Source: Bacteroidia bacterium (lineage in GTDB: Bacteria > Bacteroidota > Bacteroidia > Chitinophagales > JAUHXS01). Taken from it: a stretch of DNA of 64,000 nucleotides. The position numbers and the translations under genes are program-made. Positions 7,563 through 63,217 of this stretch are shown one piece after another. Location: the NCBI GenBank assembly GCA_030426955.1, contig JAUHXS010000005.1, forward strand, positions 1 to 64,000, read 5' to 3'. The notes under the pieces were generated by a model. It was not told where the DNA came from. It worked only from the letters and a program-made list of their open reading frames with translations, and searched no databases. Each line of letters begins with the position of its first letter. Position 1 is the stretch's first letter.

Positions 7563-9071
7563 GTGGATTACCTCAGAAATATCATACAAACACTTTCAGA
7601 AGAGGACATCAATAATTTCAAAACCTTTGTCAATCGACTTAAGCAAAAAGAGAAAAGGCGTGACCTTCAACTTTTTCACATTCTAAGTCTTCAGGAAGAA
7701 TTTTCGCCCAGACAGATAGCAAAAAAGCTAGACGATCATCTAAAGATGAACGCTTACCATTCCATTAGGAAAAGACTCACAAAACACTTAATGGACTTTA
7801 TGGTCACAAATAGATTGGCAGAAGATACTACCGCCTCAAGTTCTGTGATGGGACTAATCAGTTTATCTAAATACTTATTTGAAAAAAACAAACCTACCAC
7901 CGCATGGAATTATCTTGAAAAAGCGGAGCAGAAAGCCATCGATAATGAGCACTACGACTTATTGAATACCATTTACAACCTTCAAATAGAGCAAACTACC
8001 TCCAATACCAAAAAAGATCTTTATGAAATTATCTCACTTAGAAACCAAAATAAGCAACTCGCAGATGAAGAGGAAAAGGTAAACATTGCTTCAAGTATGG
8101 TCAAGCAACAAATTTTAGAATATAAACTAAATGGTGAAAATGTGGACTTCAACCAAGTTGTAAAATCTACCTTAAAGCAATATGGCCTAAGCAAAACAAT
8201 AACAGCACGCCCCAAGCTGACGCACAAAATCGTGCAAATATCCAGAGGGGTCGCATTAGCCACAAAACAATATCATGAATTTGAACCTTTCATTATCAAA
8301 CAATATCAAAAGATTGAATCGCGTAGTGAGTTTGCGCCGAAGGATCATTTCTATAAGCTTAGCTTTTTATATATGATCTCACACACACTTTATAGAAATA
8401 AAAAGTTCAAACAATCTGAACACTACCTTGAAACGCTTTATATAGAAGCATCAAAATACAAGCGTAATTATTGGGAGCAGTTTTATCCTAAATACATCAT
8501 GCTGTTATCAGCTGTAAAAAGCTATCAGGGCAATAACGAAGATGCCTTAACTTTTCTCCAAAATGAGTTTGATAAAAACAAACACAGACTATCACATGAG
8601 GATGAGCTGAACATTTTACTCAATTTGGCCCTATATTATTTCCAAAACAATGATGCTGAAAGTGCTCTGGATATATTACTTAGCAATTATCATACAGATC
8701 ATTGGTGTGCCAAGGTAGTTGGAAAGGAATGGGTTTTAAAAAAGAACCTTATGGAAGCTATTTTGCATTATGAACTGGCAAATCCGGACATGGCCATTAC
8801 ACGGATCAGAACAATTGAACGTAACCTAGGTGACATTTTATCGCAAAAACCATACGAGCGAGTTAAGGTTTTCATTGGTTTGGTTAAGCAAGTTATTTCA
8901 AAACCAGATATTGTCTCTCAACAATCTTTTGAAGATAAAATCGAATACTCTTTTGAATGGCTGCCCATGGAAGAAGAAGATATTCAGGCCATGAGTTTTT
9001 ATGCTTGGCTAAAGTCTAAGATTACTAAAAAAGATTATTACGAGGTTTTATTGCTATTAGTTAAGGGATAA
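7563..9071 (+). CDS. Unrecognised all-helical (TPR-like) protein, family member A
   Basis: 502 aa, no signal peptide or membrane helix, so cytoplasmic. It is predicted almost entirely alpha-helical, with TPR-like pairs such as AWNYLEKAEQKA and SEHYLETLYIEA. The N-terminus has the family signature: LSEEDINNFKTFV, RDLQLFHIL and NAYHSIRKRL. The C-terminus has HYELANPDMAITRIRTIERN and WLKSKITKKDYYEVLL. Related proteins lie at 41614, 45205 and 61763. The start is GTG; a TACTTTTA box at 7550-7557 ends 5 nt before it. The gene converges on the LytTR/LytS/GldM-like run, 13 nt apart. I do not recognise a described function; a regulator or adaptor is possible. Confidence 0.8.
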   Translation: MDYLRNIIQTLSEEDINNFKTFVNRLKQKEKRRDLQLFHILSLQEEFSPRQIAKKLDDHLKMNAYHSIRKRLTKHLMDFMVTNRLAEDTTASSSVMGLISLSKYLFEKNKPTTAWNYLEKAEQKAIDNEHYDLLNTIYNLQIEQTTSNTKKDLYEIISLRNQNKQLADEEEKVNIASSMVKQQILEYKLNGENVDFNQVVKSTLKQYGLSKTITARPKLTHKIVQISRGVALATKQYHEFEPFIIKQYQKIESRSEFAPKDHFYKLSFLYMISHTLYRNKKFKQSEHYLETLYIEASKYKRNYWEQFYPKYIMLLSAVKSYQGNNEDALTFLQNEFDKNKHRLSHEDELNILLNLALYYFQNNDAESALDILLSNYHTDHWCAKVVGKEWVLKKNLMEAILHYELANPDMAITRIRTIERNLGDILSQKPYERVKVFIGLVKQVISKPDIVSQQSFEDKIEYSFEWLPMEEEDIQAMSFYAWLKSKITKKDYYEVLLLLVKG

Positions 9072-9084
9072 AGAAGCCTATTAC

Positions 9085-9843
9085 TTATGTTAAATTATCC
9101 TGTAATTTATTCAAGAACAACTCTTTTCGCTGTCTTGCAATACTCAACTCTTCTCCATTCTCCATAATGACATATCCTCCGCTACTTTTCACATAGCTTT
9201 TGATATATTTTAGGTTAATCAAAAAAGACTGGTGTATTCTTACAAAACCATGTTCATCTAAAAGCTCTTCGTATTCTTTTAGCGTCCTGCTGACTAATAA
9301 ACTTGAACCATCCTTGATGACAAAATTGGTATAATTATTTTCTCCTTTACAATAAAGAATGTCTTTTGTTGGAATAAAAACCACCCTATCCTCTGTTGGA
9401 AGGGCAATTCGTTTATCAAAAGCAGGTTTTTGGTTGATATTTTTGATAAAGTTTTCCAGCCGATCATTATTATTCTTTGCTGTTGCCTTTTCTACGGCTT
9501 TATTAACAGCTTCCTTAAAGTTTTCAATGTTGATTGGCTTTAAAATATAGTCTAATGCGCTAAAACGAATTGCTTTAATCGCATACTGATTGTAAGCTGT
9601 TACAAAAATTATTTCAAATGAAATATCTTCTAAAGATTCTAACAAATCAAACGCATTACCCTTTGGCATCTCAATATCCAGAAACACGAGATCCGGCTGA
9701 ACTTCCTTGATCAAACGATTTGCCGACTCAACAGAATTCGCATTACCTACTAAATCAATGTTTTCGCAATGCTTTTGTAATATGCTTTCAATATTGCGAA
9801 TATTGTTTGGCTCATCATCAACTATGATCGTTTTCAACTGCAT
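9085..9843 (-). CDS. LytTR-family response regulator
   Basis: 252 aa. Residues 1-~120 are a receiver domain with acidic pocket Asp9/Asp10, phosphoacceptor Asp56 (FLDIEMP) and a conserved Lys in YILKPINI. Residues ~145-250 are a LytTR DNA-binding domain, with ILYCKGENNYTNF, LKEYEELL and FVRIHQSFLINLKYI. It is the expected partner of the LytS-like kinase whose stop lies 2 nt upstream. The gene order GldM-like, kinase, regulator on one strand suggests one transcript. Confidence 0.92.
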   Translation of the reverse strand: MQLKTIIVDDEPNNIRNIESILQKHCENIDLVGNANSVESANRLIKEVQPDLVFLDIEMPKGNAFDLLESLEDISFEIIFVTAYNQYAIKAIRFSALDYILKPINIENFKEAVNKAVEKATAKNNNDRLENFIKNINQKPAFDKRIALPTEDRVVFIPTKDILYCKGENNYTNFVIKDGSSLLVSRTLKEYEELLDEHGFVRIHQSFLINLKYIKSYVKSSGGYVIMENGEELSIARQRKELFLNKLQDNLT

Positions 9844-9845
9844 AC

Positions 9846-11465
9846 TTAACTTAAGGTGATATATATATTAACTAAAGTACCCGATGGTTTATTATCAGTA
9901 TATAAATCCTGAATATCTATGCTTAAGTCACTGCCGTATCGTGCATTTAAAACTTTTAGTCTCTCTTTCGTCAGGCTAATACCATACGACCTATGTCCTA
10001 CCTGATTTTTACTTTTCTGCTCCTCCGATACTTTTCTCCCTATTCCATTGTCTTCAATAGTGCAGATTAACAAATTGTCACTTTGCTGTAATTTAACAGA
10101 AACCATACCTTCTTTCCCCTTCCCTGCAATACCATGATTTATAGCATTTTCTACAAACGGTTGTATTAAAGTCGGTGGTATTTCAAGATTATACAGATCC
10201 ACACTTTTATCTACTTCTACTTTATGATTAAAATTAAACCGGAGTGATTCTAATTCAACGTACAACTCCAGAGTCAATAACTCTTCCGAAAGAGGAACAG
10301 TAGTTTTGTCCGAATGATCGAGAATCATTCTTGTTAGTTGAGCGTATTTTGAAATGTATTTATTTGCTCCGTCTAAATCATTTGTATTTACCAAACTTTG
10401 TATTGAGCTGAGTGTATTAAATAGAAAATGAGGATTCATTTGCGCTCTTAAAGCCTTAAGCTCTGTTTCAGCTAACTTCCTATTTATTTCAGCTTCCTTT
10501 CTTTTTTTTCGGTACTTTCTCACTCGATTGACATACACACCACCTCCAAGAAGCAACAAGAATAGAGAAGCTGAAGCTATTTGAAAAGTATTGCTTTGGT
10601 AAAATGGAGGAGCAATTGTAAAAGCAAATGTTCCGTAGTCCTCATCGCAACCATAGCTTTCTGTGCAGACTTTGAATGTATAATCTCCAGGCTCTAGGTC
10701 AATATAATTTAATGATCTTTGAAAATAACCTATTTCAATCCAGTCTTCATTGTACCCTTCAAGGATGGCACGAATCTTTCGGTCGGCTCCAGGTCCAATC
10801 TTGGTGTCAAATAAAAATTTTAAGTTGTTTTGATCCGCGTTTAAAAGAAGGTATTTGGGTAAACCTGTATTCTCATTTAAGCTATCCGTGTACTCCGACC
10901 AATTAAAAGGAACATAATCATCATTAATCTCAATATCCTCTTGAGTATTTCCAGAATTCATTAAAATAACATCTAAAATGATCGGCAGATCGGAATACAA
11001 AGAAACACTCCAATGATCTAACTCTCTAATCACTATATTTTCGGTTAACGTATCAGTGAAAGCTCCCTCATGATTTGCATATACCTTTAGTGTGTAGTTG
11101 CCTAATTCTAGATTATCGTAATAAATGTTTTTGTTTTGAGTAGTATTCCAAGTCGTCTCATATCCTTGTAACTTATAAAAATAGGTTGCTTCATCTGTTA
11201 CTACCTTCTCCTTTGTCGATGTTATCTCTTTGGTCTCAACAAAAGACTTGTTATCGTAAGTCTCTTTTACTTTCGTTACCGACCAATAAAAGCAACTGAA
11301 CTCAAAAGTGCAATATCCCTTATCTTCTTTAAACCCCTTTTCTGTTATTATATCAAGATACATTTTAGGTCCTTTTTCAGCAGATACAATCGTATCTACT
11401 GAAACCAATGTTTGACCTATGGTATAGTTGAAGAATAAAATGATTATGCTGGATGCAATTCTCAC
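9846..11465 (-). CDS. LytS-type sensor histidine kinase with periplasmic Y_Y_Y-like sensor
   Basis: 539 aa, GTG start. A signal-anchor or signal peptide (IASSIIILFFNYTIGQ) leads a ~270-residue beta-rich extracytoplasmic region. That region ends in a Y_Y_Y-like module (LEPGDYTFKVCTESYG), followed by one membrane helix (~292-310). The cytoplasmic part starts with a coiled coil (RKKRKEAEINRKLAETELKA), then the His_kinase box with phosphoacceptor His346 (MNPHFLFNTLSSIQ). It ends in an HATPase domain with N and G boxes (FVENAINHGI, EDNGIGRK). It has neither the seven-bladed Reg_prop propeller nor the TPRs common in relatives. It is coupled to the downstream LytTR regulator and the upstream GldM-like gene (stop to start 4 nt). 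Confidence 0.88.
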   Translation of the reverse strand: MRIASSIIILFFNYTIGQTLVSVDTIVSAEKGPKMYLDIITEKGFKEDKGYCTFEFSCFYWSVTKVKETYDNKSFVETKEITSTKEKVVTDEATYFYKLQGYETTWNTTQNKNIYYDNLELGNYTLKVYANHEGAFTDTLTENIVIRELDHWSVSLYSDLPIILDVILMNSGNTQEDIEINDDYVPFNWSEYTDSLNENTGLPKYLLLNADQNNLKFLFDTKIGPGADRKIRAILEGYNEDWIEIGYFQRSLNYIDLEPGDYTFKVCTESYGCDEDYGTFAFTIAPPFYQSNTFQIASASLFLLLLGGGVYVNRVRKYRKKRKEAEINRKLAETELKALRAQMNPHFLFNTLSSIQSLVNTNDLDGANKYISKYAQLTRMILDHSDKTTVPLSEELLTLELYVELESLRFNFNHKVEVDKSVDLYNLEIPPTLIQPFVENAINHGIAGKGKEGMVSVKLQQSDNLLICTIEDNGIGRKVSEEQKSKNQVGHRSYGISLTKERLKVLNARYGSDLSIDIQDLYTDNKPSGTLVNIYITLS

Positions 11466-11469
11466 AAGC

Positions 11470-13110
11470 CTAGTTTATACGGAAAGTGATATCAGAAAGT
11501 TTCGTTATACCCCCTGGTCCTTTAGCACGAATTCCAGTAAAGGTATAAAGATCGCCTGGTTCTGCTTTATCTATAAATTTTCTTACATCCCCAGTAAATC
11601 TAACACCCCTTCCAGGAGCAGAAGCAATACCATCAGCTCTCTGACCAACATATAGTAATTCATAGCTGGTAATTTTATAAGATATTCCCTCATAGACAAA
11701 GTTTTCCAACTCTGCAATAATCCCTAATTGTGCTCTAAACTTTGCGGCTCTGATTCTTCCTCCATTCATCTTAGCCACTTTAGCCAATGGCTTAGGCACT
11801 CGTTTTACTCTAAACCGCTTGCTACCCATCACTTTTTGAACACCCTTATCATCCACTACTGAAATGTTGATAGTTGCCAATCCCGCATTCCCCACCTGAG
11901 CGATAAACTTTCCGTTCCCTTTTTGAATCAACGTTCCTTGAGAAATACTTCCTCTAACCCTTCCCGGTGGGAACCCGGGAACAGACAAGGTCAACTCATT
12001 GTCAATTCCTACATACAATAGATTAAGCTTATCTGCGGAGGCTACCACACCCGCATTACCTACCGTATAGTCTGATTTAAAAGGAAAATAAATTGAATTT
12101 CCGTTAGGAAGTTTTAGCTTGATTGCTCCCTCATAGCTTTGTTTTCCTGGTATCTCAGGAAGTGACTCAAGAATACCTTTTCCGTTTTCTGTTTGCAATG
12201 AATCACTTATACTGGCCAATGGAGAGGTATTTGTTGCATTGTATTTTCCAGTTTGTTCATTAATACTTAAAAAGGAGGTATCCAACTCGCCTAAATATAC
12301 CATTGGTTTTTGAGTTGAACTGTAAGCCGAAACGAATATCGATGAGCGATACTGCTCTCCTAAATTCAGATAATTGGAGTTTGCTATAACCTGAGGTTCT
12401 AAAACATCAAATTGAATACCAAACTCACCTAGCTTTTTAAGTAAGTGTGTCAATAGGTCCACTTCTGTAGATTTTAAATCAGACTTTAACTTAGTAATCA
12501 TGGTAACTACAGCTGCTAAAGGCATTCCTTCAAACATATTGTTTACCCATGGTTCTTTACCATCATTAGTCACTACATCTTCTGCTGGACTTAATGCTAA
12601 GATAAAATTCTTACGATCCGCAGAGTCTACTAATTGCAATAACCGGTGCCTTGTGCTGTTAATGCGATCTTGCAACTCAAAGCCTTTCTTTTTAAAGATT
12701 AAGACTTCGCTTCCAATTTCATTATCATCTGCTTTTGCAAGCTCTCCAATACCTTGGCCACGATCTTGATAAGCAGAACCCCCACTACTTCCATCACCAC
12801 TTCCTTTACTTTCACAGATCTTTTGTAAATCGTCCATAAAATCGTTCAATTCGCCACAATATTTTTTGACTAGATTGGCTTTTATAAAGTACTCCTTGGC
12901 TCTTTTCGGATCATTTTGCATTTCGAAAGAAAGCTTACCATAAAGGTTTTCTATTTTTTGCTCTGTTTGATCATTTGATCGATCAATGCTCAATTGTACC
13001 ATTCTAAAAGCTTTTAAAACTTCCTTGGATACGTTCATTGCTAAAAGTGCAATCAAAACTAAATACATCATATTAATCATTTGTTGCCGCGGTTCTTTTG
13101 GTAGTGCCAT
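11470..13110 (-). CDS. GldM/PorM-family T9SS motor-like protein
   Basis: 546 aa, slightly longer than typical GldM (~515). The N-terminus KEPRQQMINMMYLVLIALLA, continuing MNVSKEVLKAF, is the GldM transmembrane helix, which in GldLM packs with GldL and couples proton flow. A helical domain (~35-220) has a Gly/Ser-rich insert near residue 105. Beta domains follow, with FRVKRVPKPLAKV and the C-terminal run GDLYTFTGIRAKGPGG typical of GldM D4. No gldL, gldK or gldN gene lies nearby. Instead it heads an apparent operon with a LytS kinase and a LytTR regulator. It could be the only GldM or a second copy; the rest of the genome would tell. Confidence 0.85.
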   Translation of the reverse strand: MALPKEPRQQMINMMYLVLIALLAMNVSKEVLKAFRMVQLSIDRSNDQTEQKIENLYGKLSFEMQNDPKRAKEYFIKANLVKKYCGELNDFMDDLQKICESKGSGDGSSGGSAYQDRGQGIGELAKADDNEIGSEVLIFKKKGFELQDRINSTRHRLLQLVDSADRKNFILALSPAEDVVTNDGKEPWVNNMFEGMPLAAVVTMITKLKSDLKSTEVDLLTHLLKKLGEFGIQFDVLEPQVIANSNYLNLGEQYRSSIFVSAYSSTQKPMVYLGELDTSFLSINEQTGKYNATNTSPLASISDSLQTENGKGILESLPEIPGKQSYEGAIKLKLPNGNSIYFPFKSDYTVGNAGVVASADKLNLLYVGIDNELTLSVPGFPPGRVRGSISQGTLIQKGNGKFIAQVGNAGLATINISVVDDKGVQKVMGSKRFRVKRVPKPLAKVAKMNGGRIRAAKFRAQLGIIAELENFVYEGISYKITSYELLYVGQRADGIASAPGRGVRFTGDVRKFIDKAEPGDLYTFTGIRAKGPGGITKLSDITFRIN

Positions 13111-13334
13111 GTCTTATCATTTTGGTTAACACTACTAAAACTGGTTATATTATTACCAATAATCAATATGCACTTAGCGACTGGTTAGCATCAATTAGAA
13201 TTGGACTTATTTGAGCAAGAAGTTGGTAAATCGAGAATTTTATTATCGAAAAAATGCATACTTAATAAAACACACATATATTTTGAAGTAAATCAGTACA
13301 TTTACACAAATAACTACCATATAAAACTATACAC

Positions 13335-14685
13335 ATGACAATTCTTGGCATCTTAATACTATTAGTATCGCTATTTATATATTTTTTTGGCATTCAATTA
13401 AAGCGACAAGCAAAGAAAGAAGGACTGCAAACAATGCCAGACAATACCGGTGGATTATTATCTCTCATAAAAAATAGACACACTAGACTTGCATCTCTTG
13501 GGCTATTCTTTGGAGCCTTAATGATTATTACTCCCTACCTGTTTTTGGGCAGAACCAGGATACCAGTACTTTGTTGTATATCCTAATGGTTCTAAAACAG
13601 CAGTATTGACAGAAGGCATCAAATGGAGAGGGTTTGCAAAAATCACACCGTGGCAAAAATACATTGATGTAAAAGTATTAGACGAAGGAGAAGAAACAGA
13701 AGAGATAGAAGGAGCGATGAGGCCAATACCAATTCGTTTTATTGATCAGGTAACTGCTAAAGCTAAACTATCTACAAGGTTTCAGCTACCAGCAGATGAA
13801 AAGTCTTTTATTGACTTAGCTATTGAGTTTAGGTCTTTACAGAATTTGGTGCAAACCACTTTAATTCCTACTGTCAGAGAGGTTGTTTCAAACACGGGAT
13901 ATATGTTTGCTGCACAAGATTATATTTCTGGTTCGGCTTCAGACTTTCGAGTTGCGATAGACGATCAATTAAAATTTGGAACCTACAGTGTTGAAAAAAC
14001 GGAGTATAGAGATACCATTCCTTCTTCCATTGAAGATAGCGAAAGACAAATTAAAGAAGTACGTACAAAGTATGATGTAAACAAGAGATTGGATAATACG
14101 GGCAAAGTAATCAGAATCCCGCACGACATTAACGAAAACCATATCATTGTTGCTCAGGTTATTGTAGATGATGTAATCTTGGAGGAAACCTTTAAGAAAA
14201 GACTAGAAGCACAAAGAGATGAATCTGCGAAAAGACAGCTTGAACAACAAAAGATAAAAACAGCAAAAGATGCACAAGCAAGGATTGTTGCGGAAGGAGA
14301 GAGAGATAAAGCGGCGGAACGTGTTGCTCAAGAAAAAGAGCAAGTAAAGGCATTGATTGCTATTGAAACCAAGCTTAAGCAGGAGGAAACAAATAAAAAA
14401 TTGGCAGAGATTGCTCTAAAAACAGAAAGATTAAAAGCAGAAGCAGAAAAGGTAAAGGCCGATGCAGAGTCTTATAAAAATGCTAAGTTAGTCTCAGCAG
14501 GATTAACACCTCAAGAGAAAGCTCAAATACAGATGGAAACCTCCATTGGAGTTGCAGCTGAGCTTGCCAAGATTCAATTTCCGACTACCATGATCATTGG
14601 TGGAGATGGCAAGAATAATAAGACCCCTCTAGAGGCACTAATTGGAGCTGCTATGGCAAAGCAATTGACTCCACCTAGCAAATAA
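13335..14685 (+). pseudogene. SPFH/band-7 domain membrane protein, broken by one extra T
   Basis: Two ORFs (13335-13586 and from ~13546 to 14685) read as one protein if a single T is removed from the T5 run at 13542-13546. The junction then reads ITPYLFWAEPGYQYFVVYP. The restored product is ~449 aa: an N-terminal membrane helix (ILGILILLVSLFIYFFG), a second one near residue 60, an SPFH-like domain (~75-285) and a long charged coiled coil (~280-400, rich in AEKVKADAES-type repeats). SPFH proteins scaffold membrane microdomains or proteases. Either the gene is genuinely frameshifted, or the base is a sequencing error; translation could restart at TTG 13606 without the membrane anchor. The coding quality of both halves is good, which favours a recent or technical event. 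Confidence 0.75.
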
Positions 14686-14808: not shown

Positions 14809-14880
14809 TGGCCTCACCAGGACTCGAACCTGGATCTAGAGTTTAGGAAACTCCTATTCTATCCCTTGAACTATGAGGCC
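14809..14880 (-). tRNA. tRNA-Arg (anticodon CCT)
   Basis: The 72-nt cloverleaf is complete. Acceptor GGCCTCA pairs with TGAGGCC plus discriminator A. The D-arm is GTTC/GAAT, the anticodon stem GGAGT/ACTCT has loop TTCCTAA, and the T-arm CCAGG/CCTGG has loop TTCGAGT. The CCT anticodon reads AGG. CCA is not encoded. Confidence 0.93.
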
Positions 14881-15055: not shown

Positions 15056-17137
15056 TTATCTAATAATAGTTATGGTATTTTCAAACTGATAATATTGACC
15101 AAAGACATCATAAAGTTCAATTAAGTAAACATATACATTGCCTGATGATCTATTACCTTTGCTTGACCCGTTCCAGCCTTTATCTAGGTCTTCTGTATAA
15201 AATGTCATGTTTCCAAATCGATCGAAAATGGTCATATAAAACTTATCTATATTTTCAGAGTGAATGATATATGGTCTAAAAATGTCGTTACTACCATCAG
15301 CAAACTCAGGAGAAAATGCATTTGGAATATATATTGTAGGCGTGTCTATGATGGGAATTACTTCAACGACAACCTGTCCAGTTCTCTTGCATCCAAAGCT
15401 ATCTGCAACAATGATTTTGTATGTTTTATTTTCCAATGGACTAACTATTAGATTATCATTACTATCTATATTTTCATCTCCCATAGTCCAAGAAAAAGCA
15501 CTAGCTTTTGTAGAGATTGCTCCTATCAAAACAGAATCTCCCTCTAAAATTGTTGTGTCTCCATAAGTTAGTAATTCTATAGCGGAATCAACAAATATAG
15601 ATTGGCGAAATGTATCGAAATCACATCCATCTGTTATAGCTAACACAACTTCAAAGCTATCTTTTGGTTTGTATAAGTGAGAAGGACCTTGGAAGGAATC
15701 TATGTTATTAGAAGATGCATCATCGCCAAAGTTCCACTGCCAACCTGTGATATCACCACATGATTGGTCTTGAAAAGTTACTAGACCTTCTGTACAAGAT
15801 TGGGTGTATTCAAAATCTGCTTCGAGCGTTGGGGTAAAAAAATTAGAGGGAAAATTAGGTAAAACACCTCTACTGAAAGGTGGATTGCTTGGAGGAATGG
15901 TTACCGTATAAACACCGCTGTGCTCAAATCCAAATGGATCTGCATTACATGCGGTGCCACTATTATTGGGTTCATGAATAACTGGCATATGAGATCCGAA
16001 TCCATCACCACCTATATATATTTTTTTATCAGGACCGAGTTGCATCATCCCTAAAATGAGATCATAATGTAGGTTTGTTTGTTCTTTTTCTTGTAAAATA
16101 ACTTCCGAGTTTACTATGGAAAAAGAATCAGGAATTGATAAATCGTACTGCAATAGTTGGAAGACCTGATTGGGTTTTGGAAAAGGCGCTAATGTATAAT
16201 AATCTATAGCAACGCTAGCATAGAGTTTGCTATTATCCGGTGAAAACTCAACTCCTCTTCCATGCACTGGTACATAATACCCAGAGTTAAAGTCCTCTTT
16301 TAAGTAAATAGGATAGGAGATTTCTCCGGAAACATTATCAAACTTAAGAAGCTGTATACCTTCGTAATTGCATGCATGGGCTAGCCATTGTCCATCTGGT
16401 GAAAATTTCAATTGCTGACCCACAAGATGATTACTGTAAGAATTATCAGCAGCAAAACCAATAGAGATAGTATCTTGAGGAATAATTCCATCTTTTGTGA
16501 TGAGATATGTTAAGAAATTATTGCTTGGACTATTATCATCATTTTTGAAATCATGTACAACTAACCAATAGTTTTCAGTACCACATTGAATAGTAGATGC
16601 CATGACATAATGCAAGGAGTCTCCACTAATTTCTACATTGCGTTCTATCGTTGCTCCTCTGCCTCCAGCGGCTGAGATATCGACCAATGTATACCTTAAG
16701 GACATATATTCACCCGCTGCAGGAGCATATTTCGTGCCACCATAAGTAATAACATAATAAAGCGTCTTGGTTTTATCATATGGTTTAGGAATAATTAAAG
16801 ATCCTTGTTTAACACTCGGATCACCATAAATATTCATTCCACCTACTACCGTATCAGATATCAGATTGCCATTCCAGATCCTCATTTTTGTATTAGAAGT
16901 AGTTCCCGTATATAATAAAAGATTACCTTCTGCATCACAAATAGAAGATGTTCCACCATACATATCCACTTCATCATTTGTTAACTCAAAAGGAGCTCCG
17001 CTATTAAAATCTAGTCCTGCTTGTGCCCCGTAATACCAAATATTTGCCCTTTTATCTGTACATGGCGGCTGTTGTGCAAAAGTCATTACACACACTATAG
17101 TTAAAATAAAAGTTGTAGTTTTTGTTAAGTGACTCAT
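15056..17137 (-). CDS. T9SS type B cargo with beta-propeller and PKD domain
   Basis: 693 aa. The signal peptide ends near FAQQ (residue ~22). Residues ~30-430 form a WD40-like propeller, starting ANIWYYGAQAGLDF, with SPDGQWLAHA and SPDNSKLYAS blades. Residues ~440-520 are a PKD domain (WQWNFGDD). An Ig-like unit follows, and the last ~95 residues are a type B sorting domain (IYIPNAFSPEFADGSNDIF, TIFDRFGN, GWNGSSKG). It is expected to be secreted and surface-retained. The same N-terminal propeller occurs at 46821-48473. It follows the type A cargo gene (17140-19287) by 2 nt, so the two are probably co-transcribed and may form one surface complex. Confidence 0.85.
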   Translation of the reverse strand: MSHLTKTTTFILTIVCVMTFAQQPPCTDKRANIWYYGAQAGLDFNSGAPFELTNDEVDMYGGTSSICDAEGNLLLYTGTTSNTKMRIWNGNLISDTVVGGMNIYGDPSVKQGSLIIPKPYDKTKTLYYVITYGGTKYAPAAGEYMSLRYTLVDISAAGGRGATIERNVEISGDSLHYVMASTIQCGTENYWLVVHDFKNDDNSPSNNFLTYLITKDGIIPQDTISIGFAADNSYSNHLVGQQLKFSPDGQWLAHACNYEGIQLLKFDNVSGEISYPIYLKEDFNSGYYVPVHGRGVEFSPDNSKLYASVAIDYYTLAPFPKPNQVFQLLQYDLSIPDSFSIVNSEVILQEKEQTNLHYDLILGMMQLGPDKKIYIGGDGFGSHMPVIHEPNNSGTACNADPFGFEHSGVYTVTIPPSNPPFSRGVLPNFPSNFFTPTLEADFEYTQSCTEGLVTFQDQSCGDITGWQWNFGDDASSNNIDSFQGPSHLYKPKDSFEVVLAITDGCDFDTFRQSIFVDSAIELLTYGDTTILEGDSVLIGAISTKASAFSWTMGDENIDSNDNLIVSPLENKTYKIIVADSFGCKRTGQVVVEVIPIIDTPTIYIPNAFSPEFADGSNDIFRPYIIHSENIDKFYMTIFDRFGNMTFYTEDLDKGWNGSSKGNRSSGNVYVYLIELYDVFGQYYQFENTITIIR

Positions 17138-17139
17138 TA

Positions 17140-19287
17140 CTACTTTTTAAAAATCTTATTTACTGCTTCAAAATCATTTCCCTTCATACTTAAATAGTAT
17201 ATTCCGGAAGAAAGACTTGAAGTTGACACTTCTATATAGCTAGAATTTTGAATATTATCGTACCATACCGTTTGTCCTAATTTATTTTGTATTGACAACT
17301 CAATGCCTTGTAAGCTTGGGATTTCAATTTTAAGTTTATCTGTAAAAGGATTAGGATAAACAGACAATTCGATATTGGGTTCAAATATAGAGGTTGCCAT
17401 ATTCAGCTCAACACATTTTTCTGAAGAACACCCAAAGTAGTCTACAATGAGGCATACTTCATTATTACCATTAATGGTTATATCTAAATCGAAAAAAGAG
17501 AAATCATGAATGGAATCGCCATTATTTGTCCAGTAATAATTAGCTACTTCTGTATTTTCCTGCAATCGATATAATGTACCGTCAATTAGTGTATCTACAA
17601 TGATATCCGATGCAATAGAGTTATAAACTGTTATGATTTTCTGAGTTGTTGTTGTATCATCAAAATAGTCTATAGTAGTAAGCTTTACAACATATTCTCC
17701 AGGAGTAGGATAAGTATATTGTGGATTGGGATCATTACTTACATCTAATAACGTAGTTGTGTCTCCAAAATCCCAAGACCAACTTTTTGTTCCAGAGCTT
17801 GATATATCCTCAAAGGTTATCTCTAAGGAGGAACAGTCAACAGTATAGTCAAAATTATTTTTTGTTACTGGACAGTATTTTGCTGTTTGGGGATTAGAAA
17901 AGTATTCTACTGTTGTTGGAGCTGAAATTACGGTAGGCGTATAATATTCTATACTATCTTCGTTAACTATCGCTGGTATAAAGTCATTATCAACAGTCAG
18001 TTCTTGAACAAAATCTTGCTGGGTCTTATAACATTCTGAGGCACTTTCGTCCTCAAAAGAATTTCCATTTGAATCTATTTGTACAATATAGGCTTGGTTC
18101 ACAGTGAATGAGCCAACTGGTGTTTTTCCGTCTGTTTCTCCTACAAACATAACTTGTCCGGAAGGTTTTTCTATAATTTGAGTAAAAGCATCATTATAAA
18201 AGGCTTCGTAAAGGTGAGAACACTTTATTGTATTATTTGAATAACTTGCCTCATCCTCTTGAATACAGATAGCCAATGCGTCTGTTCCAATATTCATATA
18301 ATCATCATCATTTGAGCTTCCTGCCAAGATGATTTCACCATTAGACTTAAGGTGAATATCATTAATAATCTCATTAGCATTATTTTCATACACCTGAAAG
18401 TAATTCAGGGCTCCTTGATTTGAAAATGATGCCATAAAAGCATTTTTATGTCCATGATTCCCTTGAACTTCTATGTTTCCAGCTATATAAATGTCTCCTT
18501 CTTGTTTTAAAGCTATGCTGTTACAGGTTATAGCATTAATATTGGTATCTTCTATTACTCGTATCCATTCAGCAATTCCAGTTGAGTCAAACTTTCCAAT
18601 TCGTAGTTTTTTTGCATTTTTAATCTCGCTTACAAAGTAAACATTGTCTTCTTCATCCAATTCCAAGTCATAGATTGCATCACTATTATATCCATTTCCA
18701 TTACCTAATAATCTAGCCCACTTCACTGTAGTACCATCCTGAGAAAGCTTGAATAGAATTGAACTTTTAGAGTTGTCGCTATTAGTTAAAAAGCCACCAA
18801 CGAGCAAATTTCCTTTACTATCTACTTTAATTGCAAAAGCTCGGTCTTGCTTATTAGAGCCAATATAAGTTGTCCAGAGTAATCCAGGAGAATATGATCC
18901 AGAAGTATCATATTTGAATACGGCAATATCGTTTCCTCCAATTGTATTTGGGCCACTATTGAATCCCGTACCGTATAACAACTCATCTTTACCGATGCAG
19001 ATAGACATTCCTTCTGCAAATGGGCTTGAATGTGCTTGAAACCAATTAACCCAGAGATCATTCATATTTGTTTTAAAGGCGCTAACTATCATTTGTCGTT
19101 GCATCCCCGAGCTTCCTCGTTTTATACCAGTAGAATAAAACTTATTGTTTTGTTGATGATAAGCAAGACCTTTAATAGGATAGTATGTGCCTGCTATAAA
19201 ATAAAACCTTTGAAAAGGAGGTTCCTGAGCATATGTATAAATACAACTGTAAATTGTAACATGAAGGATTAAAAGGATTCTTTTCAT
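17140..19287 (-). CDS. T9SS type A cargo with SBBP-like propeller and PKD domain
   Basis: 715 aa. The signal peptide spans 1-20 (YTYAQ). Residues ~25-430 contain repeats of the SBBP type, with blocks such as VDSKGNLLVGGF, LDEEDNVYFVSE and LKSNGEIILAGS. A PKD domain lies at ~490-565 (SWSWDFGDTT, YPTPGEYVVKL). The C-terminal ~75 residues are a type A sorting domain (VYPNPFTDKLKIEIPS, SIQNKLGQTVW, SSGIYYLSM). The family reports no known enzyme activity; adhesive or structural roles are usual guesses. It is the first gene of a two-gene unit with the type B cargo downstream. Confidence 0.85.
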   Translation of the reverse strand: MKRILLILHVTIYSCIYTYAQEPPFQRFYFIAGTYYPIKGLAYHQQNNKFYSTGIKRGSSGMQRQMIVSAFKTNMNDLWVNWFQAHSSPFAEGMSICIGKDELLYGTGFNSGPNTIGGNDIAVFKYDTSGSYSPGLLWTTYIGSNKQDRAFAIKVDSKGNLLVGGFLTNSDNSKSSILFKLSQDGTTVKWARLLGNGNGYNSDAIYDLELDEEDNVYFVSEIKNAKKLRIGKFDSTGIAEWIRVIEDTNINAITCNSIALKQEGDIYIAGNIEVQGNHGHKNAFMASFSNQGALNYFQVYENNANEIINDIHLKSNGEIILAGSSNDDDYMNIGTDALAICIQEDEASYSNNTIKCSHLYEAFYNDAFTQIIEKPSGQVMFVGETDGKTPVGSFTVNQAYIVQIDSNGNSFEDESASECYKTQQDFVQELTVDNDFIPAIVNEDSIEYYTPTVISAPTTVEYFSNPQTAKYCPVTKNNFDYTVDCSSLEITFEDISSSGTKSWSWDFGDTTTLLDVSNDPNPQYTYPTPGEYVVKLTTIDYFDDTTTTQKIITVYNSIASDIIVDTLIDGTLYRLQENTEVANYYWTNNGDSIHDFSFFDLDITINGNNEVCLIVDYFGCSSEKCVELNMATSIFEPNIELSVYPNPFTDKLKIEIPSLQGIELSIQNKLGQTVWYDNIQNSSYIEVSTSSLSSGIYYLSMKGNDFEAVNKIFKK

Positions 19288-41613: not shown

Positions 41614-43119
41614 TTAGAGCAACTTTTGTTTTATCAAGTCTTTAATTGGCTGCTTTTTTATCTTGCTTTCAAGCCATATGTCGATACCAAACGCTTTCAC
41701 TAAGGCATAATTATAAGGAGTGTTTTCTTGGCTTTTAATCACTTCGTTAATCTTAACAAAGGTTTCTACTGCTTTACTGGGGTCAGTTATTTGATAGAGC
41801 TTTCTAAAAATGGGGAATATTGATTTTTCAAAACTAAGTTCTCTTTTCTTAAGAAGCATCCTGTAACAAGATCTGATGGAGCTTTCGAGCAGCATGTCAT
41901 CATCAGCTTCATAGTTAAGAATGATCCTAAAAATCATGGCAAAAGATTGGACATCTCCAAGGAGTATATTTTCAGCATGTATTATTTTTTCGAGCCAATA
42001 TCTGCATTCATCAAATTTTTGGTTTACAAATAAAAGCTGGCAGGCATCTATACATATTATCAGCCAGTTATTTAAGGGCATCTTTTTTTCGTAAACTTCT
42101 AATTGATTATTTATATTTTGGGTATCAAGCTCTATCTTTTCGACTAACATTTTTCGAATAAGAACCGTTATTTCAATAAATGCTATATCTGCTTCAATTT
42201 GACTAGATCTTATATTGGCATTTTTATAAATGGCTTTTACTTTTTGCAAAGTTTCATCAGCCTTACCATAGTTTTTTTCTTCAATTAAATAATAAACTAA
42301 TGATTTGTGATGATTAATATATCTATTTAACCTTGAGTCTAGGCCTTCAGGATGGTTTTCTTCAAGCTTAATGACCTCTTGTATATAATAGGTAGCTTTT
42401 TCAAGGTTACGTTGATATAAGAAGAAGTTATGCCAAGTATTAGCAATAATAAGTTTTTCATAGTTTGACAGGCTGAGATCTTGTTTTTTTAAAAGAGGTG
42501 ATGACATCATGGACTTTAAAGCGCTGTTTGTTTTTGCATCCGTTTTTCGCCCTAAGCTTAGTAAAGTACTGTCAATTTTTGTCGTTAAGTATTGTATTTG
42601 AGAGATTTTTTCCAAGCGTTTTAGCGCACTTGTTTCCTCTTCAAGGATACTATCATTTGACTTCATAACATTGCCCATACTGCTTTTGTAAAGCCTTTTC
42701 CAATAAAGCAGGATCAACTCAAAGTGATACTTCTGATATTTTTGAGCCTTTTTAATGGCTCCTTTAAGCATACTATATCCAAGCTGAAATTGAGCTTTTT
42801 TATATAGCACGATGATGCTTTGTATCGTTTCCAACAGCTCATTATCTGCTGTCTTTTGACTGTAATATGCACTCAAAGAGGAAACAATTTGCTGTTGTAG
42901 GTAATGCTTGTTGTATGAAATGTTTTTCAAAAACACTTTGTTATTAAAGAACTTCCGTTGGATAATAGTTTCGTTATACGATTTCATTTGTTCTATTAAA
43001 TCAAACAGCTTTACATAATTGTTTTTACCCTTTTTTACGTGCAGAGACGAATATATTTTGAAATACCTTTTTTCATTTTTGGTTAAAGACTGAACTAAGC
43101 TGTAGAGTGCTTCTGACAT
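41614..43119 (-). CDS. Unrecognised all-helical (TPR-like) protein, family member B
   Basis: 501 aa from ATG 43119 (MSEALYSLVQSLTKNEKRYF); an upstream in-frame extension to 43173 lacks a plausible start. There is no signal peptide or membrane helix. The N-terminal signature LTKNEKRYFKIYSS and KLFDLIEQM, and the C-terminal WLESKIKKQPIKDLI, align with members A, C and D. The middle is helix pairs such as GYSMLKGAIKKAQKY and KATYYIQEVIKLE. It is encoded between a type B T9SS cargo (convergent) and a T9SS-exported glycoside hydrolase (divergent, 124 nt apart). Function not recognised. Confidence 0.78.
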   Translation of the reverse strand: MSEALYSLVQSLTKNEKRYFKIYSSLHVKKGKNNYVKLFDLIEQMKSYNETIIQRKFFNNKVFLKNISYNKHYLQQQIVSSLSAYYSQKTADNELLETIQSIIVLYKKAQFQLGYSMLKGAIKKAQKYQKYHFELILLYWKRLYKSSMGNVMKSNDSILEEETSALKRLEKISQIQYLTTKIDSTLLSLGRKTDAKTNSALKSMMSSPLLKKQDLSLSNYEKLIIANTWHNFFLYQRNLEKATYYIQEVIKLEENHPEGLDSRLNRYINHHKSLVYYLIEEKNYGKADETLQKVKAIYKNANIRSSQIEADIAFIEITVLIRKMLVEKIELDTQNINNQLEVYEKKMPLNNWLIICIDACQLLFVNQKFDECRYWLEKIIHAENILLGDVQSFAMIFRIILNYEADDDMLLESSIRSCYRMLLKKRELSFEKSIFPIFRKLYQITDPSKAVETFVKINEVIKSQENTPYNYALVKAFGIDIWLESKIKKQPIKDLIKQKLL

Positions 43120-43243
43120 TTTTATAATATTGAAAATTAATATTTTATGAGAAAAAAGAAACTTTGAAATCAAATCACAATTTATAATAATTTTTTCACT
43201 TTACAGCAATTCTACTTTTTTAGCATGAAACAAATACATAGTA

Positions 43244-45208
43244 ATGAGAACACTCTACACAATATTTATGCTGATAGTTTTTTCTATTGTATATGGTCAA
43301 GATGATTTTTGGGGTTTACGCCGAATTTCAACTCAGTATGTAGACACCCCATCTATTCAAGATCTAAAGCCGGTTTATTGGGTTGGAGGAAACAGAATAT
43401 GGGAGTTGGTAGAGCCAAGTGAAAATAACTTTGATTGGGAGCCATTAGATGACTTTGTAAATGATTTTGTAAACAGCAACAATGGTGTTTTACATTATTT
43501 GTTTGAACAGGGCTTTAGTAGTTGGGCTTTAGATGCAGATGGTTTGGTCAAAGACTTTGAAAATATTCCAATCAACGACCCTGTTCCGGATTCCGGATAT
43601 TCAAAAATATTGTACAATACAATATATCAGATAGTAGCGCATATTGCTACCATATACGACCGCCCCCTTTATTTGAATTACTTAAACGAGCCTTGGTTTA
43701 ATAATCACTGGAATACAAATAGTAATGATGTTATTAATATTAATAATTATAGACGCTGCTTGAGGACCGTTTACAAAGCTGCTCACAAAGCAGGGCAAGA
43801 TCACGGATTAGAAGTTTGGGTCTCGCATGGTGGCTTTAATATTCAGCAATATTTACCATATCACTGGTATATTACCTATCAAAATAGCAGTAATAGAGAG
43901 AAAGACTCTATTGCTTTGGAGGCGAAATCTTTCTTTAATGACAGGTCGGGAACCAAAATATCAAACTTTGCTTCATTAGCTAGTTTTGTGAACTCTCAAC
44001 AACATCAGGATTGGAGATCTTGGATTACCAGAATGGCAAGAGAAACAGACTATTTAGATTATATCGACTGGCACATTCCTAATAAGCCAAGGTTTACAAA
44101 GGAAATAATGAAAGTACACGATAATTTGATCAGCTCAGATCCCATTAATGGAATACCAAAACCCTATTTCGGTAGTGAGTCCTATTTTGTTATAAGCGAT
44201 AATGGAGACACGCAGTATGAGCCTTATTTACATGCCCAGGATTTAATGAAAAAATACATAGTAGGAATGGATAATGAAATCATAACGATGTGTCCACCGT
44301 TGCACCCAGCCGGTGAAAATGCACTTACTTTCTACGGTTTTTATGATAAAAAAGATACCTCAGAAACACAAGCAATAAAGGCATACGACTATTTAAGAAA
44401 CCTTGTTCCTAATCCTTGGCAATCAGGAATGCATGATCTTAGTTCGGGAAATGTTTATCACTTCAGGTTTGACAGCTTAAATATGGATGTGTTGTGGAAA
44501 GATGCATTATCAGATGACGATGCTTCGGGAGTATCCTATGAAATTGATTTTTTTAGCGATTATGGCGCAGCTAGTATAAAAGATGTATTTGGAGATTCGG
44601 TAGGATATATTAACAAATGTAAACAAAGGCTTATTCTTAATCAGGATATCAAATATGTATTTTGGGAGGCAGAAGCGAGCGACACCAATAGTTCTTTAAG
44701 CTTTGATTTGGATACTTTGGGGCAAAGCATAATGCTAAATAGCCAAACCGATACATCGGTTTTTAAAAACTTATACTGGACAATTAACGACGACACTTTG
44801 GAATGGCAAGAATCATTGTCTATTGATGTTGACTCTAGTGGCACATATGTTATTTGCTTGATCGGAAAGTATGAGGATGAATTGTGTAGCACCGATAAAA
44901 AAATATGTAAAAATGCCGTTTTCGAAAAAGAAAATAATGCAAACAGTGTATTTCCTTCAGAAAACCTTACAGAACTCTACTTAGCGCCAAATCCTTTTCA
45001 AGATGAGATAACTATCTCTTTAAATTCAAACCTAGTAAATGATTTGATAGAAATACAGTTACTAAACATTAATGGCGTTATAGTCAAAAAACTTGAGGCT
45101 ACAAAGACCATCCGCATGACGGGTCTTTCAAGCCTAGTTAAAGGTCCTTATTTGTTGCTTGTAAAAACAACCCAAGGGCAGATAACTAAACGTTTGTATA
45201 AAATCTAA
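43244..45208 (+). CDS. T9SS type A exported glycoside hydrolase (clan GH-A-like)
   Basis: 654 aa. The signal peptide spans 1-~18 (VYGQ). Residues ~20-400 look like a TIM-barrel hydrolase of the GH-A clan. YLNYLNEPWF gives a candidate acid/base Glu149, and PYFGSESYFV gives a candidate nucleophile Glu312 ahead of an HPAGE loop. The overall look recalls agarase/GH39/GH86-type enzymes, but the family cannot be fixed by eye. A beta-sandwich linker follows, then a type A sorting domain (~580-654, APNPFQDEITISLNS, GPYLLLVKTT). The enzyme is therefore expected at the surface or outside, cutting an extracellular polysaccharide. Its stop codon overlaps that of family member C. Confidence 0.72.
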   Translation: MRTLYTIFMLIVFSIVYGQDDFWGLRRISTQYVDTPSIQDLKPVYWVGGNRIWELVEPSENNFDWEPLDDFVNDFVNSNNGVLHYLFEQGFSSWALDADGLVKDFENIPINDPVPDSGYSKILYNTIYQIVAHIATIYDRPLYLNYLNEPWFNNHWNTNSNDVININNYRRCLRTVYKAAHKAGQDHGLEVWVSHGGFNIQQYLPYHWYITYQNSSNREKDSIALEAKSFFNDRSGTKISNFASLASFVNSQQHQDWRSWITRMARETDYLDYIDWHIPNKPRFTKEIMKVHDNLISSDPINGIPKPYFGSESYFVISDNGDTQYEPYLHAQDLMKKYIVGMDNEIITMCPPLHPAGENALTFYGFYDKKDTSETQAIKAYDYLRNLVPNPWQSGMHDLSSGNVYHFRFDSLNMDVLWKDALSDDDASGVSYEIDFFSDYGAASIKDVFGDSVGYINKCKQRLILNQDIKYVFWEAEASDTNSSLSFDLDTLGQSIMLNSQTDTSVFKNLYWTINDDTLEWQESLSIDVDSSGTYVICLIGKYEDELCSTDKKICKNAVFEKENNANSVFPSENLTELYLAPNPFQDEITISLNSNLVNDLIEIQLLNINGVIVKKLEATKTIRMTGLSSLVKGPYLLLVKTTQGQITKRLYKI

Positions 45209-46695
45209 GCAGAATAATAGTGTGAGGCAAAAATTTCATAATAGCGCTTCTTTTCAAGCTTTGACAGAAGCCAATCATTAAGGTCTATAAACTCAATGGT
45301 ACCCGATATCCAAGGAGTTTCTTTAAGAAACTTTGTGCAAGAATTCTTAAACCTTTGGTTATCCAAAGCAGAAGGACTTAAGCACATTTTGTTCAAAATT
45401 TTTAAAAAGGCAAGATCTTCGCTAAAAATTTCTTTTGAAAGAAGCTCTTTATACCTAAATCGAATAGATTTAATCTTTGATAGCGCAAGGGATAGATTTT
45501 GTAACTCATAATGTAAAATGCATTCAGAAATTAGAATAATAAGTAAAGCGCTATAGCCACTGCGTTTAACAATATTAGTCTCGTATTGCAATATATCCTG
45601 AAGTATAGATAGACATTCTGAGTAATCATTTTGGGCAAAGTGCCAGATATATTGATTGATATGATATGAAAACTCCCTTACTCTGGTGGCACTATAAATA
45701 TCTTTATCTGATAATATACCCAAAAGTTTTTCCGCCTCACTGGTATTATTTAATCTCAGTTGAATAAAAAACATACATTCATAGCAATGAAAAAAATTTG
45801 GATAGGTAGCTTCCTTGGTCGAAACAGAATGTTCTTTTAAAGAGTTTTCCAGTTTGAGATTGATTTTAAGTGCCTCTGAATAATTTTTGTTTTTAACTTT
45901 TATCCAAGCAGCATTGATCAACATTATGTTATATGAATCAATGGCTGTCGAGCTTTCAATGGTTGTATGGCTAGACTCCAGTTTTTGAATGACATTTAAT
46001 AACAACTTTTCAAGGGCAATATACTTTTTCTGATTAAACATGACAACAGCAAGAGAAAATAATATGTGAAATAACTCTATAGAAATTTTTTCCCAGCTAT
46101 ATTGAAGACCAAACTCCTTTAATGTTTCAGATAGCAACTTGCTTAAGTCTGCTCCAGAAAAAGACTCCTTTTGCTTGTTGACTTTTATCATTAAACAAGA
46201 TAGTGCCAATCGGGAGCCAACATCATTTGAAAGTACATTGATAGTCTCATGATAGTCTTCAGAAATTTTTTCAATCCACTCATCAGTAAACACACCACTG
46301 TTTTTTCCTGTGTAAAGCTGTATGTGGTTGATTAGCGTATAAAGCTGTTTTTCTTTAGCATTTTTATAAACTTTTTCCAACAGCTTTTCACCACTTAAAT
46401 AGTAGCCATTATTAAAAAGGAATTTAGCAGATGCAAACCTTGAGACCAGTTGTATATAGATATCATCATTAGCTTCTTTATTGAGGATAAATAGTTCAGC
46501 TTTTTTAAGGAGTCTTTTTCGAGCCATTTGATGCTTATTTGAGCTTTTGGCAACAACATTTCCTAACCTTATCGTATTAAAAAGCAAAAGAGGGCTGTTA
46601 TTTCGTTGACTTTTAGTGTTGCTATTTAGAAATTGTTTAAACGCATTTGCTTCTGCATTAGTAAAACTGTGTATGATGTGCTCTAGTATCTTCAA
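45205..46695 (-). CDS. Unrecognised all-helical (TPR-like) protein, family member C
   Basis: 496 aa, TTG start (MKILEHIIHSFTNAEANAFK); no better codon exists. It is cytoplasmic by sequence. The N-terminal signature FTNAEANAFKQFLNS and LLLFNTI, ARKRLLKKAELF, then the C-terminal signature ECILHYELQNLSLALSKIK and WLLSKLEKKRYYEIF match members A, B and D. The stop overlaps that of the convergent glycoside hydrolase by 4 nt, and the start is divergent from a type B cargo gene (125 nt). Pairwise similarity to A, B and D is low, pointing to old duplications. Confidence 0.78.
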   Translation of the reverse strand: MKILEHIIHSFTNAEANAFKQFLNSNTKSQRNNSPLLLFNTIRLGNVVAKSSNKHQMARKRLLKKAELFILNKEANDDIYIQLVSRFASAKFLFNNGYYLSGEKLLEKVYKNAKEKQLYTLINHIQLYTGKNSGVFTDEWIEKISEDYHETINVLSNDVGSRLALSCLMIKVNKQKESFSGADLSKLLSETLKEFGLQYSWEKISIELFHILFSLAVVMFNQKKYIALEKLLLNVIQKLESSHTTIESSTAIDSYNIMLINAAWIKVKNKNYSEALKINLKLENSLKEHSVSTKEATYPNFFHCYECMFFIQLRLNNTSEAEKLLGILSDKDIYSATRVREFSYHINQYIWHFAQNDYSECLSILQDILQYETNIVKRSGYSALLIILISECILHYELQNLSLALSKIKSIRFRYKELLSKEIFSEDLAFLKILNKMCLSPSALDNQRFKNSCTKFLKETPWISGTIEFIDLNDWLLSKLEKKRYYEIFASHYYSA

Positions 46696-61762: not shown

Positions 61763-63217
61763 ATGGATTTATTGAGCACACTTATTTTACAAATGAGCAA
61801 AGATGAAGTTCGAAACTTCAAGATATATTCAAAAAGGACAATGCAATCAGAAAGTCGTAAAGATTTAGAGCTTTTTGATCTGATACGTGTACAGAAAGAT
61901 AATTTTGATGAAGACAAAGCTTTTCAAAAACTGTATGAAAAGGGTGAGAAAAATGCTTTTTATCGCTTAAAAAATAGACTCATTCAAGATATCAATAAAA
62001 ATACGATGCTACATCACCTAGGCGATGAAACCATCGGACTTTTTCAACTATTAAGTTTGTCTAAAGTTTACCGCAACAAGAGCAACTATGAAGTTGCTGT
62101 ATACTTTCTGAAAAAAGCAGAGAAAAATGCTTTGAAAATAGAGGCATTTGAAATACTAGACCTAATATATAGTGATTTTATAAAGCTTTCGAAGGATTTC
62201 ACTGCTATACACCCTGAAATCTATATTAAAAAGAGGAAAGAAAATAATTATCAAATCCAAAAGCTGAAGTCATTAGATGACATTCTTGCAATGGTTACAT
62301 ACAAAATAAGGACAACTCAAAATTTTTCTTCAAAAAATATAGATATAATAGAAGTATTAGAAGATACCGTAAATACTTATAGCAAGGATAGTGATTTAGA
62401 GAAAGGCGCAAAGTTTAAAACGATGGTTTACAAGGCAGTAAGTAGTATTCTTCTAGAAAGAAAAGATTTTGCTTCACTAGTTAAGTTTACAAGTAAAACG
62501 TTTGATGACTTTAATAATTTAAACTTATTCAACAAAAGTAATCACGCAGACAAACTGCAAATGCTTACTTACATAGCAAATGCATACTATAAAATAAAAT
62601 CATATGACAAATCATTGAATTATAGTGGGTTATTGAAAGATGCTATGAATGAGTTTGGAGGGTTTCTAGAGGGAAAATATTCATTTTATTATCATAATAT
62701 AGTTTTGGCAAATCTTGCTATTGTTGACAAGGAAGAGGCACTGACAACTTTGTATGCGCTTTTAGACAATGATAAGATCATGCAGCAATCTTATTTTGAA
62801 TTTTTTGTATATGCTAATATCTGCACACTTTATTTCGATCTTGAAAATTATGATAAATCACTGGAGTATCTTGTAAAACTATACACAAAAGATGGCTATA
62901 AAAGCTTAGACAATAGTTTAAAGCTCAAGTTTGATGTAGCAGAAATGATCGTTAGATATGAGCTAAGGGATTTTGACTTTATAGACTATAAAATACAGCA
63001 AATTAGACGAGACTATAAATTACTCCTAGAGAATCAAGACTATCAAAGAGAAAGAAACTTGTTATCGATAATTAAAAGAATGGCAAATACAATTGAAATT
63101 AAGCAGGATAAGAGAAGCACTAAGCTGATTTCTGAGTTTTTAGCATCAAATACCAGTCAAGAGGTTGAAGAGAGTGAAATTATTCAGTATGATAAATGGC
63201 TGAAAAAATACGAATAA
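61763..63217 (+). CDS. Unrecognised all-helical (TPR-like) protein, family member D
   Basis: 484 aa, ATG start, no signal peptide. It is closest to member A: MSKDEVRNFKIYSKR, RKDLELFDLI, NAFYRLKNRLIQDI, AVYFLKKAEKNALK near residue 120 and VRYELRDFDFIDYKIQQIRR near 400. It ends YDKWLKKYE, shorter than the WLxSKIxKKxYYE end of A and C. It lies between two T9SS cargo genes: divergent from 60763-61677 and convergent with the cargo at the right edge. Function not recognised. Confidence 0.8.
   Translation: MDLLSTLILQMSKDEVRNFKIYSKRTMQSESRKDLELFDLIRVQKDNFDEDKAFQKLYEKGEKNAFYRLKNRLIQDINKNTMLHHLGDETIGLFQLLSLSKVYRNKSNYEVAVYFLKKAEKNALKIEAFEILDLIYSDFIKLSKDFTAIHPEIYIKKRKENNYQIQKLKSLDDILAMVTYKIRTTQNFSSKNIDIIEVLEDTVNTYSKDSDLEKGAKFKTMVYKAVSSILLERKDFASLVKFTSKTFDDFNNLNLFNKSNHADKLQMLTYIANAYYKIKSYDKSLNYSGLLKDAMNEFGGFLEGKYSFYYHNIVLANLAIVDKEEALTTLYALLDNDKIMQQSYFEFFVYANICTLYFDLENYDKSLEYLVKLYTKDGYKSLDNSLKLKFDVAEMIVRYELRDFDFIDYKIQQIRRDYKLLLENQDYQRERNLLSIIKRMANTIEIKQDKRSTKLISEFLASNTSQEVEESEIIQYDKWLKKYE

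Follow-up and report, generated by a model that had tools for sequence, protein, structure and literature searches.

A lineage-specific second GldM encoded in an apparent operon with LytS and LytTR genes

We characterized gldM2, a gene of a Bacteroidia bacterium, as encoding a lineage-specific paralogue of GldM, the rotating shaft of the type IX secretion (T9SS) and gliding motor; the gene apparently shares an operon with genes of a two-component system and exemplifies a class of stand-alone GldMs that recurs in the order. The genome (3.41 Mb in 23 contigs, 97% complete) carries on contig C7 a complete gldK-gldL-gldM-gldN operon with its own gldM; a putative porP/sprF-like gene precedes this operon. 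The gldM of the window (the whole stretch of 64 000 nt that was analysed) is a second copy; the initial annotation had proposed to look for another gldM in the genome and, as this was found inside the complete gldKLMN operon, it is the window gene that is the extra one. Full-length gldL and gldN each occur just once in the genome, in the C7 operon. The sole other gldL match, a short membrane protein encoded on contig C11, has a GldL-like stretch at residues 20–60 (45% identity) and lacks the GldL cytoplasmic part; a dedicated second gldL was thus rejected.

The gldM2 locus and its sensor kinase

Three co-directional genes occupy the minus strand of the window: gldM2 (11470..13110, 546 aa), a gene for a LytS-type sensor kinase (9846..11465, 539 aa, GTG start) and a gene for a LytTR-type response regulator (9085..9843, 252 aa). 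The gaps are 4 nt between gldM2 and the kinase gene and 2 nt between the kinase and regulator genes, the same spacings that were given in the initial annotation. A single transcript for gldM2 and the kinase gene is favoured by the 4-nt gap and the shared direction, and the three genes form an apparent operon. No gldL or gldN is found near gldM2 and no gldK is evident among the window ORFs, in line with the initial description of the locus.

The gldM2 product is a full-length GldM/PorM paralogue with a transmembrane (TM) helix and domains D1–D4. It matches all four GldM Pfam domains (E-values from 1e-34 to 8e-12) and scores 289 bits against the NCBIfam GldM equivalog TIGR03517 (cut-off 180); in the AlphaFold model (mean pLDDT 85) a single helix at the N-terminus is accompanied by a helical D1 and by beta domains. 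Pfam, NCBIfam and AlphaFold agree with the initial assignment to the GldM family, full length, with motor helix and terminal beta domains.

The Pfam matches of the kinase are His_kinase, HATPase_c and two Y_Y_Y stretches; those of the regulator are Response_reg and LytTR. The periplasmic part of the kinase consists of two Y_Y_Y-type beta domains (about residues 33–146, modelled at low confidence, and about residues 206–284) with no beta-propeller, which refines the earlier description of a LytS kinase with a periplasmic sensor. A helix starting from about residue 292 leads through the membrane into the kinase; His_kinase covers residues 334–411, with H346 in the motif MNPHFLFN, and the HATPase domain follows. 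The catalytic motifs are intact, H346 and N440 being invariant. With a phospho-acceptor His, an ATPase domain and an adjacent LytTR regulator with a receiver, the pair is of the LytS/LytTR type. The closest relatives of the kinase are mostly ∼1000 aa long, and their long N-terminal part we take to be the usual beta-propeller; in 398 genomes, nothing matched the first ∼183 residues of the window kinase by sequence at E 1e-8. There are only three LytS kinases in the genome, and the window kinase alone among them appears to carry a periplasmic sensor part, the other two being judged by length and start of sequence. As the usual propeller sensor module is absent, the window kinase may respond to a partner protein instead.

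The divergent intergenic region 5′ of gldM2 (13111..13334) is the presumed site of the operon promoter. The strict Bacteroidota promoter TTG-N17-23-TANNTTTG was not found upstream of gldM2. The region has two 8-nt direct repeats (13140–13147 and 13180–13187), a possible, unsupported candidate for an operator; the search for a promoter and a LytTR operator gave no convincing candidate.

Several other features of the window were recorded. The gene divergent from gldM2 (13335–14685, plus strand) is SPFH/Band-7-like and lies in two frames, split near 13560–13600, by either a natural frameshift or a sequencing error. Past it, upstream of the gldM2 operon, are a tRNA gene (14809–14880, minus strand; Rfam) and two adjoining genes (15056–19287, minus strand) for proteins that have PKD domains and C-terminal signals for type IX secretion (CHU_C, Por_Secre_tail). 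Four proteins of ∼500 aa with similar-looking N-termini (7563–9071, 41614–43173, 45205–46695 and 61763–63217) represent a local expansion; the one encoded at 7563–9071 has a TPR match and a weak match to the BT2802 family.

Divergence of GldM2 and other stand-alone GldMs

GldM2 and the canonical GldM of the same genome (GldM1) are 51% identical, while the best GldM2 match outside the genome, in 398 same-order genomes with none of the same genus or family, is 41% identical. A separate scan of genome contigs yielded canonical GldMs for the most part, and nothing closely related. In a tree of 71 GldMs the two proteins are sisters with support 100/100; the duplication is therefore lineage-specific, and on this ground a horizontal origin of gldM2 was rejected. 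The end branch of GldM2 (0.76) is 2.6-fold longer than that of GldM1 (0.29).

The divergence was assessed at near-invariant positions defined against 47 operon GldMs. In the first 35 residues of GldM2, which contain the membrane helix, 23 out of 24 such positions are kept, and this segment is 91% identical to that of GldM1. In D3–D4, GldM2 keeps 13 of the 18 positions, the changes being P372E, V416I, D440K, F473Y and D533G, and GldM1 keeps all 18; taken alone, this loss is marginal (Fisher p 0.04). It is known that GldM binds GldL through the GldM TM helix (PMC8986121), that PorM D4 alone is sufficient to bind PorN (PMC5790014), and that the D4–PorN contact is confirmed by a disulfide cross-link (PMC12421860). 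Given these binding data and the distribution of kept and lost positions, we read the GldM2 sequence as that of a protein whose motor end is preserved and whose ring end has drifted.

Extra GldMs are ordinary in the order, as ∼65 out of 299 genomes have at least two GldM-family matches (some of which may be fragments); the kinase link is the unusual part. A search for a conserved GldM-LytS-LytTR triplet, the check proposed in the initial annotation, covered, in 398 same-order genomes with the own family not among them, the closest GldM loci and 30 kinase loci, including that of the window itself; the triplet was seen in the window genome only, beside none of the other closest kinases or GldMs, and as a conserved module it was not found. 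With window proteins as queries, no LytS/LytTR neighbour was detectable for the other extra GldM copies examined, which are isolated, adjacent to gldN or placed in tandem after gldKLMN. An incomplete check of the literature gave no relevant paper on a GldM with LytTR or on a second GldM copy; F. johnsoniae is noted to have additional porM orthologues (PMC5790014).

We then considered the stand-alone GldM copies as a class (n = 16, e.g. L025, L031, L039–L041, L045, L057, L150 and L153–L159). All 16 keep the motor helix. For a first set, with four independent stand-alone lineages pooled, near-invariant cells were lost in 17 out of 36 cases in D4 and in 10 out of 112 in D1–D3 (Fisher p 2e-6). Of 58 copies with adjacent gldL, 57 have the Asp at D4 position 533 (GldM2 numbering); it is also found in 7 of 10 gldN-only extra copies, and in none of the 16 stand-alone copies, with the proviso that copies of one lineage are not independent and that a few copies might have a neighbour concealed by a contig end. 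The sole operon-class copy without this Asp is a second gldLM copy (L044). Eight of the stand-alone copies were added in a second round; all of them are without Asp533, and seven keep six of the seven near-invariant D4 positions of that set. A quick tree, with weak deep support, gave ∼6 changes to the stand-alone state and ∼7 losses of Asp533. Since the GldM of F. johnsoniae has no Asp aligned at position 533, Asp533 appears to be a signature at the order level; it may not be a GldN contact.

Other arrangements of extra gldL and gldM genes were seen in the order. In family f9 (L146, L148 and L149) a second gldM-gldN pair is in tandem behind gldKLMN, without a second gldL; this was seen directly, and in one more genome (G010, L011/L115) such a tandem pair was inferred across a contig break. 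Four loci (L111–L114), which form one clade (100/100), have a separate divergent gldL-gldM pair, a putative second GldLM motor, without gldK or gldN and beside a gene for a protein of ∼810–900 aa. At L121 (4114–5524) two tandem proteins of 220–240 aa match the D3–D4 end of GldM only and have no motor helix.

Possible roles of GldM2

We propose, with a probability of about one half, that GldM2 is a retargeted accessory motor shaft which shares GldL and is co-expressed with the two-component system. The gldM2 gene arose by duplication of the cell's own gldM; GldM2 dimers would share the GldL pentamers with GldM1, and these proton-driven shafts, no longer docking normally on the GldK-GldN ring, would act on a periplasmic partner other than, or besides, that ring. 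Through co-transcription with the genes for the LytS kinase and the LytTR regulator, GldM2 would be made within a regulated envelope response, shared expression being the least demanding version of the link between gldM2 and the two-component system. An accessory shaft on shared GldL is suggested because the helix is kept, a second full-length gldL is absent and D3–D4 residues are lost; the recurrence of D4 loss in independent stand-alone GldMs (∼6 origins) also supports it. On the other hand, GldM2, with its score above the GldM equivalog cut-off, might work in the normal T9SS, the triplet is present in one genome only, and the D3–D4 loss in GldM2 alone is marginal (p 0.04).

It is possible, if on the unlikely side, that duplication and rearrangement brought gldM2 to a place 5′ of a LytS/LytTR pair with which it has nothing to do, and that the pair senses something else and is perhaps merely co-expressed with gldM2. 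Such an origin would fit the lack of the triplet in the other genomes of the order searched, the presence of LytS/LytTR pairs of the same type together without gldM in many relatives, and the unrelated neighbours of other stand-alone GldMs. Still, with only three LytS kinases in the genome, there is no great likelihood that gldM2 landed by chance immediately 5′ of one of them at a distance of 4 nt; a single transcript is favoured by this gap and the shared direction, and the sensor part of the window kinase has changed too.

We consider it doubtful that GldM2 is a backup or a decaying duplicate working in the ordinary T9SS. The protein is full length, with all domains and with a score above the equivalog threshold, and its faster evolution could reflect relaxed constraint; however, the gldM2 frame is intact, and preservation of the helix along with change in D3–D4, repeated in independent stand-alone copies, is not what uniform decay predicts.

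The coupling of envelope or T9SS motor state to transcription that the initial annotation put forward is conjectural, so that its interpretation is supported in part. A stronger version of the accessory-shaft proposal, in which the propeller-less kinase would touch GldM2 and report motor or envelope state to the regulator, is unlikely in our estimate; that the kinase reads GldM2 would be a weaker proposition than that GldM2 works on the shared GldL motor with another partner. Quite unlikely is a motor-state sensor proper, in which the Y_Y_Y domains would bind the GldM2 rod, proton-driven movement or loading would set the kinase, and LytTR would adjust envelope or T9SS genes: the operon structure, the kinase without a propeller, the periplasmic beta domains in both GldM2 and the kinase and the PorX–PorL precedent of a T9SS motor meeting a two-component protein (PMC5005315) speak for it, but the triplet is not conserved beyond one genome and the first kinase domain is modelled at low confidence. 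In a further reading, a dedicated GldM shaft, driven by GldL as the shared proton motor but with no coupling to the secretion ring, would be the input of a LytS/LytTR system and would pass the state of the motor or of the proton gradient to gene expression, separately from PorXY; we regard this as improbable.

Should one GldL accept different GldM paralogues as interchangeable shafts, a single proton motor could have several outputs, with the outer-membrane end choosing the target. The pattern of kept helix and changed D4 in independently arisen stand-alone GldMs makes this idea directly testable, and the first candidate for a shaft with a connection to transcription would be the kinase-linked GldM2.

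Comparison with known systems

GldM2 has in common with the GldM/PorM proteins of gldKLMN/porKLMN operons the TM helix, the helical D1, the beta domains D2–D4 and the equivalog match; its solved relatives include 7cmg, 6ys8, 6ey4 and 6ey5. It differs from them in having no gldK, gldL or gldN alongside, in altered D3–D4 residues and in the two-component genes of its apparent operon; the GldM/PorM family is not defined by gene position. Elsewhere in the order, GldM paralogues that stand alone or are linked to gldN are like GldM2 in having no gldL of their own, a kept helix and a changed D4; unlike GldM2, those examined have no kinase or LytTR gene adjoining.

The window kinase shares with propeller/Y_Y_Y LytS kinases the Y_Y_Y domain, the TM segment, His_kinase and the adjacent LytTR gene, and identity across the C-terminal two thirds reaches 45%; these relatives are mostly ∼1000 aa, whereas the window kinase, at 539 aa, has only an extra Y_Y_Y-type domain. 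Finally, PorXY is a two-component system with a connection to the T9SS motor (PorX binds the motor protein PorL; PMC5005315), and in this it resembles the gldM2-LytS-LytTR arrangement. The initial annotation regarded the two as distinct, and we concur: PorX is a CheY-PglZ protein, and a protein of this type is encoded separately in the same genome, on C11, apart from the gldM2 locus, while the window regulator is a receiver with LytTR and its kinase is of the LytS type.
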